In this document: piece by piece, positions 2,850 to 53,420 of the stretch
Layout: each line of letters opens with the position of its first letter
Numbering within the stretch: position 1 is the stretch's first letter
Source of the DNA: Stenocarpella maydis
Taxonomy: Eukaryota; Ascomycota; Sordariomycetes; Diaporthales; Diaporthaceae
Direction: 5' to 3'
NCBI GenBank assembly: GCA_002270565.1
Contig: NQMI01000024.1
Coordinates: 248,001 to 312,000 of the forward strand
Length of the DNA stretch: 64,000 nt
Made by a program: the position numbers and the translations under genes
The notes under the pieces: model-generated
Seen by the model: the letters and a program-made list of their open reading frames with translations, nothing else
Databases searched by the model: none
What the model was told of the DNA's origin: nothing

Positions 2850-4952
2850 ATGGCGCCCAGGAGATGGTTCGATCCCCGCTACTTTCTGGGCTTCGACAAC
2901 CCACGCTCTCGCGGCAGCAGCAGCTGGTGGCACGAGTCTCACCAGCGTCTCCTCCCCAGCTACGTGGACGAGGCCCTGCAGTCCGCCATCCCCGCCGCTG
3001 AGGTCACCAAGATCTCACTGCGCCTGCGCCACCTCGTCGAGGAGGCCGTCCCCGTCGAGCTGGCCGACGACCAGATCACATGCCCCCACTCCAAGATCAT
3101 CACCAAGAAGGTCATCCAGGCCGCCAAGGAGGCCGGTGGCTCGCAGCACCGCGCATGCGTCGTCTACGGCCTGCTCGTGTGCAAGCGCTGGTTCAAGCAG
3201 CAGTCGCTGGCCGAGCTGTGGGACTGCGACCTGCACGCCCTGAGGGCCACCGCCTGCGAGGTGATCGCTAAGCAAATCATCGAGACGGAGGAGGACCAGG
3301 AGTACCTGATGCACTCGGTCCTGCTCAAGCGCTACTCCATCGTCGTCGACAACCAGTCCACCCCGCCAAGCAACGTCATCGAGAAGGCCGTCGACCTGCA
3401 CGCCCTGCGCGTCATCGGCTCCTCGGGCTACCAGAGGTGTGTGAGCTACCTATGGAAGGGCTGGCTGGTCCAGGATGAGGACGACCCGGCCAGCTTTGTC
3501 GATTTCAAGGACAAGGACAATACCACCTTCTACGTCCACCTCGACCCGGATCGCATGCGCGCCCCCATGTACCAGAACGCCGCCCAGCTGCTCATCTCGC
3601 TGATCTACCTGGGGCTGTATACCGGTGCTATCAACTCCATCAACAGGGACGCCGACGTCGATTTTGTCGAGATCATGCTCTACGTCTTCACCCTGGGCTT
3701 CGTCTTCGACGAGTTCACCAAATTCTGGAAGGCAGGCTACCACATATGGGGGTTCTGGACCGCCTTCAACGCCGTGCTATACGCCCTCCTTGCCACCAGT
3801 CTCGGCTTCCGCTTCGCCGCCCTCAGCCACCAATTGTCACCCCCCGGTGCTGACCCGGGCCCCCGCGAGAGGCTGAACGTGATATCCTACAACTTCCTCG
3901 CCTGCTGCGCGCCCATGTTCTGGATGCGCCTACTGCTATACCTCGACAGCTTCCGCTTCTTTGGTGCTATGCTGGTCGTCCTCAAGGTCATGATGAAGGA
4001 GTCCATCATCTTCTTCGCCCTTCTGGGCGTCATCGTCGTTGGCTTCCTGCAGGCCTTCATTGGGCTCGACAAGGCCGACGACAACCTCACGGACCTCAAG
4101 TTCATCTCGCAGGCCATGGCTAATGCCCTCATGCAGTCGCCCGACTTCGACGGTTTCGACAGGTTCGGGGCGCCTTTTGGCTTGATCCTTTACTACCTAT
4201 TCACCTTCGTGGTCATGGTGATCCTCCTCAACATCCTCATCGCGCTGTACAACTCCGCGTACGAGGACATCTACACCAACGCGAACGACGAGTTCCTGGC
4301 GCTGTTCGCGCAAAAGACCATGCAGTTTGTGCGCGCTCCGGACGAGAACGTCTTCATCGCCCCCTTCAACCTCATCGAGGTCTTCTTCCTGGCCCTGCCG
4401 CTCGAGTGGTGGCTCCCCAAGAAGCAGTACGAGCGCATCAACGACGTGGTCATGGCCGTCATCTACTCGCCGCTGCTGCTTGTGGCCGCCTACTTCGAGA
4501 CCAAGACCGCGCGCGAGATCCGCGCCAACCGCGCCCGCGGCCAGGATGACGACGACACCATCGAGGAGTGGGAGCAGATGGCCGACCAGGTCGACTTCGA
4601 GAGCGACGGCTGGAACAAGAAGATCGAGCAGGCCAAGACGAACCTCGAGGTCGACGCCACCGTCCTCGAGGTCCAGAAGCTCAGGTCAGAGGTCGAGAAG
4701 CTGCAGGACCTGGTCCTCCAGCTGACAAAGGCCATGGGCAACGGCGCCGGTGGCGACGGCGACGGAAATGGCGGAAAGTCGACGTCTCATCTTAGCAGGA
4801 CGAGCACTGTAAGTAAAAATTGGAGTCTCTGGGCCCCTGCATGGGTGAGAATTTTCACTGACCACCACCTGCAGGCCGTCGCAGACAGCCAGCTCGTTGA
4901 CACCGTCCAGGACGATGATAACGGGCACCTCGAGCCAGAACCCACGGAGTGA
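2850..4952 (+). CDS. yvc1: Yvc1-type TRP vacuolar cation channel
   Basis: The open frame gives 700 aa. Fungal Yvc1 (TRPY1) channels release calcium from the vacuole and respond to membrane stretch and cytosolic calcium. A soluble helical region (1-240) precedes six hydrophobic segments near 245-262, 272-290, 300-320, 344-365, 384-403 and 441-465. A pore loop lies between the last two (about 413-437). After the last segment come family-typical stretches NILIALYNSAYEDIY and VRAPDENVFIAPFNLIEVF. The C-terminus has an acidic cluster (DDDD near residue 560) and a coiled coil (about 605-635), as in fungal homologues. A perfect GTAAGT...CTGCAG intron at 4809-4874 is 66 nt long and in frame. Splicing would remove residues 654-675 and leave 678 aa, which I think is the true form. 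No other frame problem; identification strong. Confidence 0.9.
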   Translation: MAPRRWFDPRYFLGFDNPRSRGSSSWWHESHQRLLPSYVDEALQSAIPAAEVTKISLRLRHLVEEAVPVELADDQITCPHSKIITKKVIQAAKEAGGSQHRACVVYGLLVCKRWFKQQSLAELWDCDLHALRATACEVIAKQIIETEEDQEYLMHSVLLKRYSIVVDNQSTPPSNVIEKAVDLHALRVIGSSGYQRCVSYLWKGWLVQDEDDPASFVDFKDKDNTTFYVHLDPDRMRAPMYQNAAQLLISLIYLGLYTGAINSINRDADVDFVEIMLYVFTLGFVFDEFTKFWKAGYHIWGFWTAFNAVLYALLATSLGFRFAALSHQLSPPGADPGPRERLNVISYNFLACCAPMFWMRLLLYLDSFRFFGAMLVVLKVMMKESIIFFALLGVIVVGFLQAFIGLDKADDNLTDLKFISQAMANALMQSPDFDGFDRFGAPFGLILYYLFTFVVMVILLNILIALYNSAYEDIYTNANDEFLALFAQKTMQFVRAPDENVFIAPFNLIEVFFLALPLEWWLPKKQYERINDVVMAVIYSPLLLVAAYFETKTAREIRANRARGQDDDDTIEEWEQMADQVDFESDGWNKKIEQAKTNLEVDATVLEVQKLRSEVEKLQDLVLQLTKAMGNGAGGDGDGNGGKSTSHLSRTSTVSKNWSLWAPAWVRIFTDHHLQAVADSQLVDTVQDDDNGHLEPEPTE

Positions 4953-6044
4953 TCCAGACGGGGAGGGAGGTCACAGCACCATTAGGGGAGAGACCGCCGT
5001 GGGCAGAAAACGGGGCTGCTAGCCACAGGGTCGCCATCCCTGGGACTTTGGCGGGGATACGGTGGCGAGATTGCTGGATATACCAGGCACTGGTTGCTTA
5101 CCTCGTCGGCTCGCCCGGAGTTTTAGGTCTTGCTCAGTTTGTAAAGGTTGTTTAGCTTTGTCCGCGCAGGCGTTTCGAGCGGAGTGGCTTTTGGCGCGTA
5201 CCTAGGTCTTCTTGGCGTGACCTACGAAATGCTGCAACGCAATGAGCAATGCTATCATTGTTTTATCACTCAAGGCTGGATGCATGGAAGTGCTGTGACA
5301 GCGCTTCTCTGGTTTGGTCTGTGATTCCCAGTTAAGCCGACTTAGAACGACTACAACGTCGGGACCAAGAGGCCACGGCTTGACTTCATACGTCGTTCGA
5401 ATCGCCGGCACACCTCCTAACTGCCTTGGTGAAGGCGAAAAGCCACGGTCCTCGGTCTAGATGCAGACCCCAGATTCCACATGTTTAACCAAGTTTTTCA
5501 TCAATTACTTCCCACGATGGGAGGCAAGCTCCATTTGACGTGGCTTCCAGAGAGGGTACCCTGAAAGCATCGTTGTACCAGGAAACGGGCAGGTCTTTGA
5601 CAGGGCTAGTAGCTACCAGCCACCAGCCTCTCACTCTGCCACCTTCACACAAGCAGATCAGCATTTGTCGCCATGGTTTCCTCAGAAAACACATCAGCCG
5701 CCACATGAGGTCTTTGAACCTGAGCATATTAACACCAAATTAAGGAATTTAAGTAGGGCATAATGTTCAGGAGTTTGCTTAAGGAAGAGTATACTAATAC
5801 AGCTTATATCTTATAAATGGACCTTAGTTCCCCGCACTCTTCTGACAGTGGATCTCTGATTTCCTGGAGCAGTAGACATAGGCCAGACGGATTATCAGGC
5901 AGCCAGCCAGCTTATTCCATGTCCATGATCATGGCCCCGTGTCCGGAACAGCTTGTGGTCTTCTCATCCTTGCGGCTTTAGCCGATGCCTGCTCCCCCAA
6001 AATGCCGAGGTCACACCATCCCGCCAGCCCTGACTTGAATTCAG
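4953..6044. other. Intergenic, 1.1 kb
   Basis: This should contain the 3' end of the channel transcript. No domain-bearing frame is visible. An N-terminal exon of the downstream phosphoesterase is expected here because that gene starts at an acceptor site, but I could not identify it. Confidence 0.5.
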
Positions 6045-7934
6045 TCGGGAACGCCTGCCACACACACGTGCTATCACCACAGACCTAACCATCAGCTTCT
6101 CCACCTCGCCTGAGTCAGCGTGCGACCGCATCCAAGACCCAGCTATATCGAAATGGAATCGCATCAACAAGGATCTCTACCTGCACTCGGCCACGCATAG
6201 CGCTTGGCTTCTGATAGCGGAGGTAGATGAAGAAGAACTCAAGGCTGATGACCTGGTGGTTACAGACGTCAGGGTTGCGGCACTTGACTCACACGACCAG
6301 GAAGACGTCCCTGACTTTTCTGGAGACAATCCCACAGACAGCGCCAGGACCACTACACCAGCATGGGAAAGCCGGCCTGGGGGCATCCAGGTGGCGAGAG
6401 CGAGATATGGCGACATCATTCTCGGGGATCGTCCGCAGGATATCTTCCCTGTCACTGGAGTCGATGTCCTCTTCGGTGTAGACGCCGTCGACCCGCGGCC
6501 CTACTGGACCCTCCTGCGACAGCCGCTTCAACTGGCCGGCGCTCAACTAGATATGGCTGTCCCGAAATTGACGATACGGCAAACGGGGCGGGGCATGCCG
6601 GCTCCAGAGCCTCGGCAGCCACTGCGTGCCAGGGAGGATGGCACCTTCAAAATCGTCCAAATATCCGACACGCACATGGTGACAGGCGTCGGGGTGTGCA
6701 ATGACGCCGTAGATGCCCATGGGAGACCCCTGCCACCCCTGGCTGCCGACCCGCTCACCGTAGACTTCCTCCGCGACGTCCTCGATCTCGAGAAGCCGGA
6801 CCTGGTGATCCTGACAGGCGATCAGCTGCACCACGATATACCCGACAGCCAGTCCGCTCTATTCAAGGTGGCCAGTCCCCTGATCGCACGCCGGATTCCC
6901 TACGCTGCTGTCTTTGGTAATCATGACTCAGAGGGCGCACATGTCTTGTCACGTAAGTGAAAATCCCGGGTTGATTTCCCTTCACTTCCTTTCCCTTCTC
7001 TTTATATTTTTCTATTTGACTCTGTGGCGGTGCTGTACTGTGTCGCCCCATAGCAGGGCTTTTGTTCACTAAACACTATGTCCAGGCGAAGCGCAGATGT
7101 CGCTGTTGGAGGACCTACCGTTCAGCCTGTGCCAGGCTGGGCCAGAAGACGTCGACAGAGTTGGCAACTATCACCTCTCCGTCTTCGGCCGAGGCGGAAA
7201 TAACAAGTCAGGATCCGAAGCCCCCTTGGCAGCTCTTTATTTCGTCGACTCTCACGGCCAAGTACCGAGCTATGTCAAGGACCCAGACTACGACGCGACC
7301 AAGCAGAGCCAGATCGATTGGTTCACACGTACCTCGCAGTCGTTGCGAAGGACGCGAGAAGACTACAAACGAGGAGGGAATAACGCCTGGAACGGCCGTG
7401 CACACTTGTCTCTTGCCTTTTTTCTATATCCCTCTCCCCGAGTTCGAGGACAAGAATCTCGTGATGGCGGGAGGCCAGCGGAGAGAACCGACAGAGGGCC
7501 CCAGCTTCAACTCGCACTTCTATGAAGCTCTTCTCAGAGAAGGCGTCGTAGCAGTAGGATGCGGGTATGACTATGCCAATGACTTCTGCGGTCTGCTCTT
7601 ACAACGTTATGACAATAATGCAGATTGTGTAGAGGCAGACTCGATTTCCAACAGTGGGCAAACCGCCGGGACGCAATTCCGGCCCTGGTTGTGCTATGGA
7701 GGTGGTAGTGGGTTTTCAGGGTACTGCTCGTACGGCGGAAACAGATATCACCGCCGGACACGTGTCTGGGAGCTAGATACGGAGACGGGAGGAATCAAGA
7801 CCTGGAAACGGGTTGAATATTCCCCGGAAAAGGTCGATGAGCTGGTGCTAGTGGAAGCCGGCGCCGTGGTTGACCCACAAGAGCCTCAGGACATAGACAA
7901 AGGCGATGAGACGGCCATTCAAGCCGAGCTATGA
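6045..7934 (+). pseudogene. DCR2-like metallophosphoesterase, probably inactivated
   Basis: This resembles yeast Dcr2 and its fungal relatives, calcineurin-like Ser/Thr phosphatases with an N-terminal anchor and a lumenal catalytic domain. The readable part starts after an acceptor at 6043-6044; an in-frame stop lies just upstream and the anchor exon was not found. Metal-site motifs in order: SDTH, GDQ and GNHD. An intron at 6953-7085 (GTAAGT...CCAG) then leads into AQMSLLEDLPFSLC. The frame breaks in a run of six T at 7418-7423; five T would restore AFFYIPLPEF, the expected motif. The C-terminal metal motif normally GHDH reads GYDY (codons TAT at 7566 and 7572), so two histidine ligands are gone. 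Each is a CAT/CAC to TAT/TAC change, the type RIP makes. A frame break plus lost ligands argues for a pseudogene; the T-run alone could be a sequence error. Confidence 0.7.
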
Positions 7935-47294: not shown

Positions 47295-48611
47295 ATGGCG
47301 CCCCAGCCAGGGACTGAGGAGTTATCAGCGACTCCATTGCAACTTGAAGGGCAGTCCCCTCCCCTGGCAGTGTTAACGAACACCGACAAGTCTGGTGAAA
47401 TCGTCATTACTACGTTATTGTGTCTTGTTTTCAGTCTGTTTTCAATGGCCATCAGGGTATTTGTCAAGAAATCCTTCCGCCGCACTGAATTGGGCTGGGA
47501 CGACTTCGCGTCTACCGCGGCAATGGTTAGTTTGATATTGTCCTTACTTTCCGGCATCAATATCGCGAACTGACCGAACCTGAGAGTGAAGATAGTCTTC
47601 ATAATACAGTCCTCATTTGTGTTTGTCCAGGTGCGAGATGGGTTCGGGGAGACAATTGAAAATCTATCCGCAGCAGATGTGGTCATGTGGCAGCAAGTAA
47701 GTATGGTACTCTCTGGGAGTCCTTGGTTACATCGAATATGAATCAGAGAAGTAAAGAAGTACTGAACGTATCATCGCAGACTGCTTTCGCATGCGACATT
47801 CTATATGTTTTTGTCTTGTGGTTAACCAAGTGTTCTGTGGCATTTCTTTTCACCCGCCTCACCCCTCCAAGGGCTTACTTCAAGCATGTCACTCCATCTT
47901 ATGTTGTGATGGGCGGTTCAACTGTCTTTATGATCATTTCGGAATTTCTCATAGCGATACGGTGTGACGAAACCCAACCATGGAAAGTCGTCGGGGTGCA
48001 ATGCAACGACCTGGTAAGTTGGCATACCTCCTCTTTATTGATTTTGGGACACACACCAATCTGGATTTAGGTCACCCGGTGGCGAGTAATATTGGCCTTT
48101 GACGTGATTACGGAACTCTATTGTTCAGCATTTCTTTGTACATGCTTTATGGTATTACGATGAAGATGACGAGGAGACTGATCGTGCTGTCCGCATTCGC
48201 ACTCCGCTTACCGTCAGTCAGCCACTATTCAACAATTAGCGTTTGCTTGCTGAACAGGTCTATAGGATTATAATACCAGCTATTCTACGCTTTAAGTGGC
48301 TTGAATTCCAGCATAATAGCCTGGACCCGTTTTTGGACGGTGTATTGGCCTCGGTTTTCACACAGATACAGCTTTCGTTCGCTATCTTTGCGACTACCTC
48401 GCCGGTCCTGAGAACTTTTATGAAAGCATGGGACACGCAATACGGTGGACCGAACCACATTCGTACTCGCGTTTCTGATGGTGCGGGCCGATTGGGTAGA
48501 TTGAAAATGCAGTCCATTTTTCTGAGCTCTCCAGTGAGCTCTACCTGCCGGACAGACTGGGGATCTGTGAGCATGTGGGCTGTTCCGCAGACAAGATGGG
48601 ACAACATTTGA
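47295..48611 (+). pseudogene. PTH11/SAT4-type rhodopsin-fold membrane protein with 1-nt frameshift
   Basis: Exons 47295-47525, 47592-47696, 47780-48013, 48071-48212 and 48266-48611. Fungal rhodopsin-fold markers: RTELGWDDFASTAAM, VRDGFGETIENLS, ACDILYVFVLWLTKCSVAFLF and PAILRFKWLEF, then a TQIQLSFAIFATTSPVLRTFM helix. In exon 4 the expected DVITELLLFSISLY is broken: after GAA (48113-48115) one base is missing, giving a stop soon after. Restoring it also makes the exon end in the phase the next exon needs, which supports a true 1-nt deletion or a base error. No CFEM domain is seen. The likely role is surface sensing, inferred from PTH11 of rice-blast fungus; the ligand is unknown. Confidence 0.68.
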
Positions 48612-49284: not shown

Positions 49285-52200
49285 ATGCGCTCAGCCAAGG
49301 TCAAATGGCTGCTCCTGGCTGACATCCATTTCAAGCACCAGGACCTCAGCCGCATTACCCAGACGGCAGCGTGGGTCAGGTTGGTGGCTGAGCGACACCA
49401 GGTGCACCGCGTCATCGTCTGTGGCGACCTCCTAACGTGCCGTTCAAGCCAACCCACACATGTGCTCTCAGCCTGTTACCGCTTCCTCGGCTCGCTCGTG
49501 CACGATGCACAAGTGCCAAACGTCCACATCTTGCTAGGTAACCATGACCTAGCCTACCGTCGCGACTACAGCACCACCGCCCTCGATGCCCTGCACTTAG
49601 CCGCCCCGGCTGTGCAGCTGCACAGGGACGTAGGCTCTTACACCTGGGACGGCCGCCGCGTGCTGATGCTGCCTTTTCGCGAGGACCAGTCCGAGCTCAC
49701 AGGCGCCGTGGCAGCACTCGAGCGAGAGCACGCTTCCGAGACGGTCGCCTTCGCACACCTGGCCATTCACAGGGCTATCACGCAGCAACACGTTGTCCAC
49801 CCAAACTCTTCCGCTACTAGTCGTAGGACTGGATCTGTTGCATACCATGGGCTCATCAGTCCGGGCTGCTTTTCAAGCCTGGCCAGGACATTCACGGGGC
49901 ACTTCCACTGTCACCAGACCATCTTGCAGCAGCCCCCGGCACTGAGTACCCCTTCGGGATTCCCTGAGGAATCAGACACGTCCAGCCTGCGTGGAAGCGT
50001 GACGTATGTGGGGTCGCCACTGCAGTTGACGTGGGCGGACCTATGGGACGAGCAGCGCGGCGTGATCCTCCTGGATCCTGAGACGCTCGACCATGAGCTC
50101 ATAGTGAATCCGCACGCCGTGGGCTATGTCACCGCAAATGTGGAGGAGGTTCTGAGCGACGCTGCCGATCCAGCAGTGTTGCATGACAGACATGTTATGC
50201 TGCTGGGAGACCTTACACCGTTCAAGTACGCTACTGCAAGGGACAAGCTTGTGTCCCTCGGGGCTCGCAGCACAAGGAACTGGAGTCCCATGGCACCTAC
50301 CTTTCACGCCACGGTCGTGTCGCGAGGATTGGGAGCCTCGACGCCCGCTAGTGACTCTCTGGTACAAGATGTTAACATCAAGCCGGATAACGAGCCGTGC
50401 GAGGTCGGGATTGGCGGATCAAATACCCCGCCAAGTGTGACTGATCTGGCGTTGCCTGATTTCCCGCCCCGGCCTGTCCAGGTCGATATTCGAGAGCAGG
50501 CGGCAAGATACGTCGAGGCCATGGACATGGACACGCCACTCGAGAAGTCCCGAGAGCTATTAATCCAGGTGGGCCAAAAACTACTGGAAGCTACAGCGAG
50601 CGAAGAGAAGCAAGCCCCCGGAGAGGGTCAACCGGAGATTCTCGACTACAAATGCATCATATCACCACACGCGAATGCAATTACCGGGATAGGGCTGGCT
50701 GCTCCTCAAGTCGTGGCTACTGAGCTTATCTCATCTACTGTGTTCAATGCCCAGCCTCGGTCGCTTACTATAACAAACTTTTTGGGCGTACAGTCGACAA
50801 TTCATCTGAACTTCGGAACGGACATCAGGCGAGGTCTTACCTTCCTTGTCGGTGAGAATGGCTCAGGAAAAAGTACCCTGGTTGAGGCTATAGTGTGGTG
50901 CCAGTATGGACGGTGCCTCCGCACCGGACTGGCCGTCAACGACGTGGTGAATGACAAAGCGAAGCGCAACTGCAGCGTGCGCTTGGAGTTCAACAACGGC
51001 TACGCTATTCAAAGATACCGCAAGCACAAGGAATACGGCAACAGAGTAATAGTAGAACGGGACGGTAAGGCCTTGCCCGAGTTTGAGAAGGCGGATATTC
51101 GGGGCACGCAAGCGGCCATCAATGAGCTGATAGGCGTGGACTATGACACTTTCGTCAGGACGATCGTGCTAAGCCGGGAGAGCACCACGAGCTTTCTGAG
51201 CTCGACGCCCTCTGAGCGCAGGTCTCTGATCCTATCAATCCTAGGCCTGGACATCTTGGACCGCTGTTCCAATATAACCCATCGTTTTTTGAGGCAGTTA
51301 GGAGATGAAATGGGTCAAATTCAGTCTAATTTGGACGGGCTGGGGCAGAGAATAGACCACTTGAAGGGGCGTATCATCGAACTCACCAGCGCGAAGAAAC
51401 AGCTAGAGAACGAGCTTGATCAAACCACCCTTCAGAGGGGGACAACCCTCGCAGACCTCGAGCCGGGAACAGACTCCGACACCGAGACTACTACCGGTCA
51501 GACTGCGCGATCTGAAGGGCAGTTTTCCGCGGCGCAGCAACGAGTAGATGCTCTGCTGCATCGCAAGATGCTCGCAAACATTCGCAAGGCTTTCGAGGAA
51601 GCCAGGTCAGTCATTCAAGACAGGCGACTCACTGTGCTCCATCGTCTTATAGGACTGGAGAACAAGCATACACAGCTGTTATCGAAGAAGCCTTTCGTAG
51701 AACGAAACACTACTTCGATGCTCGGCTGGTTCTCAGACGCCGTTGCAAAGGCGTATCACCGTCTGCACTCCATGATGGCGGGCCCCGATTTTAGTTCTCC
51801 ACATACATCGACCATTCCCATGGAAAATAAACAGGCTGTCGGACGCTCGGTGAGGGCGTTGTTGTGCCGTTTCTTGACGATCCTGGGCAAACTAACCGGT
51901 GTGGAGGCTCGGAGGGAAGCAAAGGCAAGGAGGGCACAAGAGCGGCATGCCTACCAGGTAACCCTGGAAGAACTTGAGAGAAATATTACACAGCATCGAC
52001 ACCAGCTATCCCGTTTGGAGGATCTTGGTTCCGAGACGCAAATCACTCAAAAGATTGCCGCAGAAAGAGACATGCCGGTACAAGACGTGTGTGAAAGCCT
52101 CCAGGAGATTTCCGCAGAAAACGCTGAGGCTATCCCTGCACAGCTCAGCGATGCCCTCAGGACTCTGGCCGACCTCCAGCACCACCGCGAGCTTCGTGCC

Positions 52201-53016
52201 TCCAAGCACGCAAGGCTTAGGGACCTCCAGGTTGCGACGCGGGCGAAGTCTGAAAGGATAGCGACCTACAGACAGATCATCGAGGAGGAATCAGCAGCGC
52301 AGCAGAGCCTGGAGGCAGAATGCGGCGCCCTTCGAAAGAAGCTGGACAAGCTCGCAGTAGACCGCCTCCCCTTCGATTTCTGGGCCTCGGCCTTTGCGCA
52401 GAAATCCCGGCGTGTCTCCTCTACGTCCTCGGCCACGTCGTCCTACACGTTCCGGGAGTTCGTCCTGGAGCAGTCTCTCGCGGAGCTCAACACCATCACC
52501 ACGCAGATCCTCACCATCCTCTTTGAACAAAGCCGCCACGCCACCTCCCTGACGACCGGCATGCTGCGGTCCCTCTTTGTCGGCGACGATCCGGCGGCCG
52601 GGGAGAACCACGACGCCTCGGGCGCGGCCCTTGACAGCTCCCTCTCGGTTGACTCGCGCCTGTCCTATGGCAAGCGCAGCGGCGGCGAGCGCAAGCGCAT
52701 CGACCTCGCCCTCTTCTTCGCGCTGATGTACGTCGGCCACGCCCGCTCCCCGCACCGCGCCCACTACATGCTCGTCGACGAGGTGTTTGACAGCCTCGAC
52801 GTGGCGGGCCAGGCGGCAGTCGTGAGGTGGTGCAACGCCCTGGCTGCGGGGAGGCTCAGCTACATTGTTATCACCACCCACAGCGAGGCTCTTGTGCCCC
52901 ACGCGGCTCTCGCAGGTGGAGGCGAGCAAGAGGGCGGGTTTGGCGGGGCGGTTCTTGTTGTTAGAATGGGGAAGGCTGGTGTTGAGTTGGAGATGGATGG
53001 GCTGAGTGTCGGATAG
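49285..53016 (+). CDS. Single-chain Mre11/SbcD nuclease - Rad50/SbcC ATPase fusion
   Basis: One uninterrupted frame of 1243 aa, ATG at 49285, no intron. Residues 1-350 are a calcineurin-like nuclease with every metal motif: D13-x-H15 (ADIHF), GD48, GNHD (85-88), H158 (FAHLAIH) and GHFH (205-208). Residues 350-490 are a linker and capping-type region. From 493 an SbcC/Rad50 ATPase begins: SLTITNFLGVQS, Walker A GENGSGKS (523-530), then a coiled coil (about 670-1025) broken near 805-860. The ATPase then resumes with signature SYGKRSGGERKR (1127-1138), Walker B YMLVDEVFDSLD (1161-1172) and switch His1199 (ITTHSE). No CxxC zinc hook is visible. Rad50 and Mre11 of fungi are separate, larger genes, so this is extra. 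It most resembles phage gp47-gp46 and bacterial SbcCD in size. Likely an ATP-driven DNA end or hairpin nuclease; role and site are unknown. No targeting signal is obvious. Confidence 0.9.
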   Translation: MRSAKVKWLLLADIHFKHQDLSRITQTAAWVRLVAERHQVHRVIVCGDLLTCRSSQPTHVLSACYRFLGSLVHDAQVPNVHILLGNHDLAYRRDYSTTALDALHLAAPAVQLHRDVGSYTWDGRRVLMLPFREDQSELTGAVAALEREHASETVAFAHLAIHRAITQQHVVHPNSSATSRRTGSVAYHGLISPGCFSSLARTFTGHFHCHQTILQQPPALSTPSGFPEESDTSSLRGSVTYVGSPLQLTWADLWDEQRGVILLDPETLDHELIVNPHAVGYVTANVEEVLSDAADPAVLHDRHVMLLGDLTPFKYATARDKLVSLGARSTRNWSPMAPTFHATVVSRGLGASTPASDSLVQDVNIKPDNEPCEVGIGGSNTPPSVTDLALPDFPPRPVQVDIREQAARYVEAMDMDTPLEKSRELLIQVGQKLLEATASEEKQAPGEGQPEILDYKCIISPHANAITGIGLAAPQVVATELISSTVFNAQPRSLTITNFLGVQSTIHLNFGTDIRRGLTFLVGENGSGKSTLVEAIVWCQYGRCLRTGLAVNDVVNDKAKRNCSVRLEFNNGYAIQRYRKHKEYGNRVIVERDGKALPEFEKADIRGTQAAINELIGVDYDTFVRTIVLSRESTTSFLSSTPSERRSLILSILGLDILDRCSNITHRFLRQLGDEMGQIQSNLDGLGQRIDHLKGRIIELTSAKKQLENELDQTTLQRGTTLADLEPGTDSDTETTTGQTARSEGQFSAAQQRVDALLHRKMLANIRKAFEEARSVIQDRRLTVLHRLIGLENKHTQLLSKKPFVERNTTSMLGWFSDAVAKAYHRLHSMMAGPDFSSPHTSTIPMENKQAVGRSVRALLCRFLTILGKLTGVEARREAKARRAQERHAYQVTLEELERNITQHRHQLSRLEDLGSETQITQKIAAERDMPVQDVCESLQEISAENAEAIPAQLSDALRTLADLQHHRELRASKHARLRDLQVATRAKSERIATYRQIIEEESAAQQSLEAECGALRKKLDKLAVDRLPFDFWASAFAQKSRRVSSTSSATSSYTFREFVLEQSLAELNTITTQILTILFEQSRHATSLTTGMLRSLFVGDDPAAGENHDASGAALDSSLSVDSRLSYGKRSGGERKRIDLALFFALMYVGHARSPHRAHYMLVDEVFDSLDVAGQAAVVRWCNALAAGRLSYIVITTHSEALVPHAALAGGGEQEGGFGGAVLVVRMGKAGVELEMDGLSVG

Positions 53017-53420
53017 GATCGCACCCTTGGGGCGCCTCTCATCTTGAAACAGTTGCCGCTGGCGCACCCGCGACTCGAGCCGACTGTTGTGATTCACAAT
53101 GGCTGCCCCAGGAAGGCTTCACAACTTATTTTATTCCAGTGCATCGCCCAAGCCAGCTCATATACGCTGCGGCTGAGCGCAGTGACTCACCTTTTGCACA
53201 CTTCGGCTGAGGAACCTGGTTTTCGAGCAGTCCATATCTCCAGTGGCCACATCGTGTCGATGTCACAAAGAGAGTATAGGCCGTGGCGAACATGCTTTGG
53301 TTCGGCTACACGCTCGGCAACTAGGCTCTCAATCGACTGGTAGTAGGCAAGTACTTGGCCAGAGTCAAACAGCTCAAGTAATGAGAAGATCTTTGTTCTG
53401 TATAAGAACGGGAATTGCGC
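53017..53420. other. Intergenic, 0.4 kb, converging genes
   Basis: It holds the 3' ends of the fusion gene and of the NLR gene. No gene is seen. Confidence 0.6.

Follow-up and report, generated by a model that had tools for sequence, protein, structure and literature searches.

Natural proteins in which Mre11 and Rad50 are joined in one chain have been in print since 2011, when Yoshida, Claverie and Ogata described Mimivirus R555 and twelve others (PMC3175470). According to the accessible portion of that paper, the thirteen are distributed over Mimivirus, a Bacillus phage, five bacteria and six eukaryotes, and their cellular hosts, Deferribacter excepted, keep separate canonical genes. The 64 000 nt stretch of the Stenocarpella maydis genome analysed here, referred to as the window (contig NQMI01000024.1, positions 248 001–312 000), contains at 49285–53016 on the forward strand a gene for a 1243 aa protein, P0001, in which an Mre11-type nuclease is followed by a Rad50-type ATPase. 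The original prediction for this locus took the two subunits to be separate polypeptides everywhere else; given the published fusions this does not stand, and P0001 is a fungal addition to an already published class, the idea of a fusion itself being old. Fungi do not occur in the accessible portion of the 2011 paper, and no fungal fusion was noticed among the further papers listed, which were covered by the opening lines of their abstracts together with passages of PMC7824862 on jumbo phages; one may already be in print.

Sequence and model comparisons suggest that P0001 is probably an accessory fusion nuclease, a non-canonical Mre11/Rad50 like those known from Mimivirus and scattered cellular organisms, with both halves nearer to phage gp47 and gp46 than to the fungus's own MRE11 and RAD50. 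As in the published fusions, as far as the accessible text of PMC3175470 describes them, the nuclease precedes the ATPase in one chain, a cap or helix-loop-helix-like stretch and a linker lie between the halves (in most of them), the spread is sporadic and canonical genes are also present in the host. P0001 differs from them in its fungal host and in having no CxxC hook. The fusion on plasmid pDF308 of Deferribacter desulfuricans (WP_013008908.1) has 1197 aa, the same order, the same pair of PHROG families and a Walker A-to-signature distance of 632 residues, against 607 in P0001; unlike P0001, to which it is 21 % identical, it keeps its CxxC (CNTC at 766) and has IS200/IS605 flanks. The ‘DNA repair’ protein of Tenacibaculum phage pT24 (BAV39141.1) likewise has its motifs in one frame of 1310 aa (GD 54, GNHD 88, Walker A-like 456, Walker B-like 1239) and matches the nuclease profile weakly, but is very diverged and carries CxxC at 885; an N-terminal DxH, a GHxH and an ATP-binding cassette (ABC) signature were not found in it with the patterns used. 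T4-like and Herelleviridae gp47/gp46 give the best family-level match for both halves and share the short coil, the motifs and the helix-loop-helix, but are two polypeptides. The host's own MRE11 and RAD50 have the same folds and presumably the same chemistry, but are encoded by separate genes and have a long coil with a CHMC hook.

Reading frame and catalytic halves

The gene is a single frame of 1243 codons without a stop, whereas the remaining five frames contain 29–66 stops each; in 200 base-shuffled copies, read in one frame, the longest open run was 277 codons. A simple scan found one splice-like in-frame segment, codons 116–135, which is probably coding since it aligns with phage gp47. 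The observation that a one-chain, SbcCD-like protein carries both active-site motif sets is thus confirmed, and the motif positions given in the original prediction for nuclease and ABC ATPase are upheld; its interpretation is partly supported. On the reverse strand, a 275-codon open frame (52291–53118) overlaps the gene at its 3′ end and is probably a by-product of high GC.

In the nuclease half, Pfam Metallophos matches residues 9–97 with 27.8 bits (cut-off 21.5), and the AlphaFold2 model of residues 1–330 has a predicted local distance difference test score (pLDDT) mostly of 80–97, with dips to 52–69. Foldseek matched this model to solved Mre11 and SbcD structures, with a best E value of 5.4e-15 for Mre11. 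The motifs read DIH (13–15), GDL (47–49), GNHD (85–88), FAHL (156–159, with H158) and GHFH (205–208), and the seven metal ligands of Mre11 are all present. In an alignment of 80 non-redundant rows picked from 184 viral, phage and plasmid candidates, D48, N86, H87, H158, H206 and H208 are the same in all 80 rows, and D13 and H15 in 77.

Between the halves the structure model predicts two helices, at residues 402–412 and 420–440. All 67 viral nuclease rows have at least 25 residues aligned to residues 398–445 of the fusion. In the Thermotoga Mre11–Rad50 complex, as the accessible portion of PMC3175470 relates, a helix-loop-helix attaches to the Rad50 coil at its root.

The ATPase half contains Walker A (GENGSGKS), signature (SGGERKR, 1132–1138), Walker B (MLVDE, 1162–1166), D-loop (SLD, 1170–1172) and an H-loop TTH ending in H1199. 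Pfam AAA_23 covers residues 493–712 with 62.7 bits (cut-off 27) and SMC_N scores 47.9 bits (cut-off 40), while SbcC_Walker_B stays under its cut-off (23.8 against 27). The N-lobe is predicted well, in blocks at pLDDT 80–97. Foldseek matched the model of this half to Rad50 and SMC heads, with Chaetomium Rad50 at the top (E 4.9e-15); because of the long coil the root-mean-square deviation of this match is 72 Å, and the E value and motifs were relied on instead. By pattern, the Walker A-to-signature distance is 391–639 residues in the 64 of 68 relatives in which it was measurable and 1171 in the host's own RAD50, so that the coil of P0001 is about half as long as that of its canonical counterpart.

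In Rad50-type proteins the tip of the coil bears a zinc hook, CxxC. No CxxC is present in all 1243 aa of P0001. The hook was found in 68 of 68 gp46 rows, a set of viral, phage and plasmid sequences that includes viral-contig sequences and one plasmid sequence, and in all six other references (the Deferribacter fusion; the pT24 fusion, CHKC; the host's own RAD50; and three bacterial SbcC). In the alignment of the hook region one cysteine of the fusion, C861, stands opposite a hook cysteine, and half a hook may therefore remain there. The features of the locus are collected in Table 1.

Table 1. Features of the fusion gene and its surroundings, in window coordinates
Feature	Position	Strand	Basis
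Whole gene (protein P0001), Mre11–Rad50-type fusion, 1243 aa	49285–53016	+	One open frame
Calcineurin-like phosphoesterase and capping domain (Mre11/SbcD/gp47 type), residues 1–330	49285–50274	+	Pfam, PHROG, AlphaFold2, Foldseek
Nuclease motifs I–V: D13, H15, D48, N86, H87, H158, H206, H208	49321–49908	+	Motif check and alignment
Flexible linker, predicted disordered, residues 331–398	50275–50478	+	pLDDT <50
Predicted helix-loop-helix like the Rad50-binding tail of Mre11/gp47, residues 402–440	50488–50604	+	Model and alignment
Second flexible linker, nuclease part to ATPase, residues 445–487	50617–50745	+	pLDDT <50 at 445–482
ABC ATPase N-lobe, Walker A 523–530, residues 488–655	50746–51249	+	AAA_23, phrog_77, model
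Coiled coil of phage-like length, residues 656–1036 (~380 residues)	51250–52392	+	Model helices, motif spacing
Disordered coil apex (predicted), residues 833–848; CxxC hook of relatives sits near	51781–51828	+	Model, alignment
ABC ATPase C-lobe, residues 1056–1237	52450–52995	+	Pfam, model, motifs
Fungal-rhodopsin frame, upstream of fusion	47687–48067		
Ankyrin frame, NPHP3_N/NACHT-type NTPase and kinase, downstream of fusion		Opposite to fusion	
Farther neighbours: amino-acid permease, TauD enzyme, DEAD-box helicase, RabGAP, TRPY1 channel			

Family affinity

Family scores support a phage-like type for both halves. PHROG 77 (gp46-like) gives 189.6 bits (2.3e-55) on the fusion, 82 on the host's own RAD50 and 209.9 on the Deferribacter fusion. 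PHROG 100 (gp47-like) gives 86.6 bits (2.9e-24) on the fusion and 86.3 on the Deferribacter fusion, with no match to the main exon of the host's own MRE11. The PHROG families have no curated cut-off, and this comparison is free of row-selection bias, but the missing exon of the host's MRE11 affects it too. Among the NCBIfam models, TIGR00618 (SbcC) reaches 79.4 bits where the cut-off is 478.5, which sets P0001 apart from bacterial SbcC, and archaeal Rad50 reaches 61.7 against 847. The eukaryotic models TIGR00606 and TIGR00583, which the host's own copies pass, are not among the matches listed for the fusion (25 of 33 NCBIfam matches), nor is Mre11_DNA_bind among its 21 Pfam matches. The Deferribacter fusion resembles P0001 in this respect: both PHROGs match it, and no NCBIfam model does at E 1e-5. 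The 25 listed of 74 PADLOC (anti-phage defence) matches to the protein itself are inside the ATPase half, the best being mad3 at 8.6e-21.

The canonical genes, whose presence elsewhere in the genome the original prediction had proposed to check, are both there in the 53.5 Mb assembly. MRE11 lies on contig C27, where its main exon alone scores 583.2 bits with TIGR00583 (cut-off 434.6), and RAD50 lies on contig C245 with 535.6 bits for TIGR00606 (cut-off 453.75). The former carries a Mre11_DNA_bind domain and has 4yke_A and 7zr1_A as its best two solved relatives; the best for the latter is 7zr1_C (Chaetomium thermophilum). Searched against the whole host genome, the fusion protein matched its own locus and one weak place only (E 0.0012, contig C280), presumed to be an SMC-type gene.

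Relatives in phages, viruses and plasmids

A tblastn search with the fusion protein hit 2070 records of phages and 898 of plasmids, with no place covering 80 % of the query. The plasmid records are mostly from Klebsiella, Escherichia, Acinetobacter and Enterobacter; CP056499.1, the one inspected of the 898, has an unfused gp47/gp46-like pair, as if the matched plasmids were phage-plasmids. Genome contigs scanned with P0001 alone and with an alignment gave no relative, a result of little weight as the patterns are narrow, and viral contigs scanned with P0001 alone gave none either. Such empty searches with P0001 prove nothing, because the same search of the Deferribacter plasmid was empty despite its fusion.

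Five alignment-based scans of viral contigs gave at least 275 loci, two of the scans contributing the best 80 of 485 and the best 80 of 515. The nuclease is present in 262, the ATPase in 266 and both in 253, in separate frames in every one of the 253. The fused-frame test detected the Deferribacter fusion as a positive control and overlooked pT24. The 275 loci do not fix the count of viral fusions, because unfused phage genes supplied part of the patterns and very diverged fusions such as pT24 escape the test profiles. A 1050 aa viral frame (IMGVR_UViG_3300020227_000010, 3142–6291) was rejected as a fusion, being a gp46 with a large Walker A insert; the insert is about 400 aa long and intein-like in appearance. 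Among the best 50 of 222 viral structure matches (E up to 10), 12 are of at least 900 aa, with the ATPase checked in pT24 alone; they include proteins of Tupanvirus, Yasminevirus, Harvfovirus and Pyramimonas orientalis virus. The published fusion A7KV18 has 769 aa in the same listing.

Origin of the fusion

Length filters and identity clustering left 53 of the 200 nucleases and 44 of the 203 ATPases for the trees, with the Rhizobium SbcD outside the nuclease set. In both, bacterial SbcCD form a clade that does not include the window protein (support 100/99 for the nuclease and 100/100 for the ATPase), and the window protein lies among phage branches without firm support. In the best trees the fusion branches outside the canonical clades, but of the alternative pairings compared by the approximately unbiased (AU) test only that of the nuclease with the host's own MRE11 is rejected. 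One contig, OR846945.1, deposited under the name Listeria phage LM 4-11-1 and carrying no annotation, holds a bacterial-type SbcCD pair; it grouped with the bacteria in both trees and was counted as bacterial, and is possibly host DNA.

Profile scores also favour a phage-like affinity, with a caveat. A nuclease profile of viral, phage and plasmid sequences without the window row gave 102 bits for the fusion, 103 for the Deferribacter fusion, 75–84 for two SbcD, 18.5 for pT24 and 1.6 for the host's own MRE11. The corresponding ATPase profile gave 258, 170, 159–163 (two SbcC), 23.7 and, for the host's own RAD50, 67 bits. These profiles are biased towards the window protein, as their rows were mostly found via P0001 patterns and tblastn and were co-aligned with it, and the host's MRE11 entered with its main exon, lacking the first exon and motif I. 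Several points weigh against a phage-like affinity. In sequence searches of solved structures the best match of the ATPase was archaeal Rad50 (64.9 bits), and for the nuclease half no match went below E 0.11. Where the family motif is GDxxD the fusion has GDLLT, with T51 in the fifth place. The trees contain a single canonical set from eukaryotes and six to seven bacteria, and the branches of the focal rows are long. Additionally, the AU test lets survive the pairing of the ATPase half with the host's own RAD50 (p 0.187), of the halves with bacteria (p 0.104 and 0.265) and of the halves with the Deferribacter fusion (p 0.178 and 0.191).

Codon usage bears on the age of any transfer. The fusion gene has a GC content of 0.58, a third-position GC (GC3) of 0.67 and a codon-usage distance of 0.107, all similar to those of five genes taken as core (distance 0.073–0.189). 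The permease, ankyrin, NACHT-type and kinase frames have GC 0.48–0.50 and distances of 0.220–0.275, and the TauD neighbour GC 0.57 and 0.176, the distance being inflated in short frames. A recent import, as the horizontal origin first proposed might imply, is not borne out, and since codon usage is core-like, long residence looks the better reading and any import looks old. The missing introns had also been taken as a sign of transfer. This is a weak argument because several host genes lie in open frames of more than 900 codons, among them the host's own RAD50 (1389 codons) and the RabGAP in the window (1473 codons).

That the fungus joined its own MRE11 and RAD50 and the product then diverged fast is highly improbable, even though a long branch, the AU result for the ATPase and the Chaetomium Rad50 match of the ATPase model would agree with it. 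It fits poorly with the PHROG scores, which are well above those of the host's own copies, with a coil about half the length and with the lack of Mre11_DNA_bind among the Pfam matches. The original prediction expected that the halves would not both branch inside fungal Mre11 and Rad50; for the nuclease, pairing with the host's own MRE11 is rejected (AU p 0.0248), while for the ATPase pairing with the host's own RAD50 survives the same test. The data support the reading that the host's MRE11 was not reused here. That the gene is a relic without function, or an artefact of the gene model, is improbable too: the absent zinc hook would suit it, but 1243 codons are open, the catalytic motifs are kept and codon usage is core-like.

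A viral source is the best guess from these comparisons, and two other histories have to be set beside it. A bacterial or plasmid SbcDC operon could have fused once and then been acquired by the fungus, instead of a gene from the viral pool. The Deferribacter plasmid fusion, with its order, similar size and IS200/IS605 transposase flanks, makes such a route conceivable, and the halves paired with the bacterial clade survive the AU test; the route is nevertheless unlikely, as the sampled bacterial SbcCD form a separate, supported clade and TIGR00618 falls far under its cut-off while PHROG 77 scores high. Somewhat less likely again is old vertical inheritance of a non-canonical fusion in scattered eukaryotes (slime moulds, moss, algae and S. 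maydis) with loss elsewhere. The six eukaryotic fusions in print (PMC3175470, accessible portion) and a codon usage compatible with long residence speak for it, but many losses are required and, in the same portion, the 2011 authors deemed a cell-central scenario unlikely.

Possible function

Returning to an accessory fusion nuclease with phage-like halves, activity, dimer formation and gating by ATP would be expected from its family and motifs. Two fusion chains would pair via their nuclease domains, and the tethered helix-loop-helix would dock on the base of its own chain's coiled coil. ATP binding would close both ABC heads and keep the nuclease off, and hydrolysis at a DNA end or hairpin would free the Mn-dependent nuclease to cut. 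Fusion would give a fixed 1 : 1 ratio and fixed docking. With a short coil and no zinc hook, end processing would be expected and not the bridging of two distant DNA molecules; with the hook lost, such bridging is likely to be weak or absent.

The cellular role is a guess: trimming of hairpins, blocked ends or foreign/extrachromosomal DNA beside the normal MRN complex. Restriction of invading DNA is possible. Tentatively, a fungal lineage may have domesticated a one-chain Mre11–Rad50 of phage or giant-virus type, which lost its zinc hook and stayed under selection beside MRN, cutting ends or hairpins for a separate task such as the destruction of foreign, plasmid or transposon DNA. An organelle role, also raised in the original prediction, finds no backing in the frame, in which no presequence is visible: the first strand begins at residue 7, motif I follows from residue 13, and the frame is closed by a stop seven codons upstream, though there may be an upstream exon.

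With P0001 the published series of Mre11/Rad50 fusions gains a fungal case, in a genome whose canonical set allows comparison. Should it be active, this hookless natural single chain with fixed docking would be a compact system for asking whether the hook serves end bridging or only nuclease control. It is also a further case for asking by what route eukaryotes come by viral-type genes for DNA-end processing.

Genomic surroundings

Between 45000 and 60000 the core-like fusion gene is flanked on both sides by frames of GC 0.48–0.50. No repeats of at least 30 bases were found in 40000–64000 and no tRNA in the 64 kb window. Carriage as Starship cargo was considered and rejected, as the matches to DUF3435 (captain-like) that were found lie on other contigs. 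One such match, on contig C67 (90157–91338), is in three pieces, one of them with a stop.

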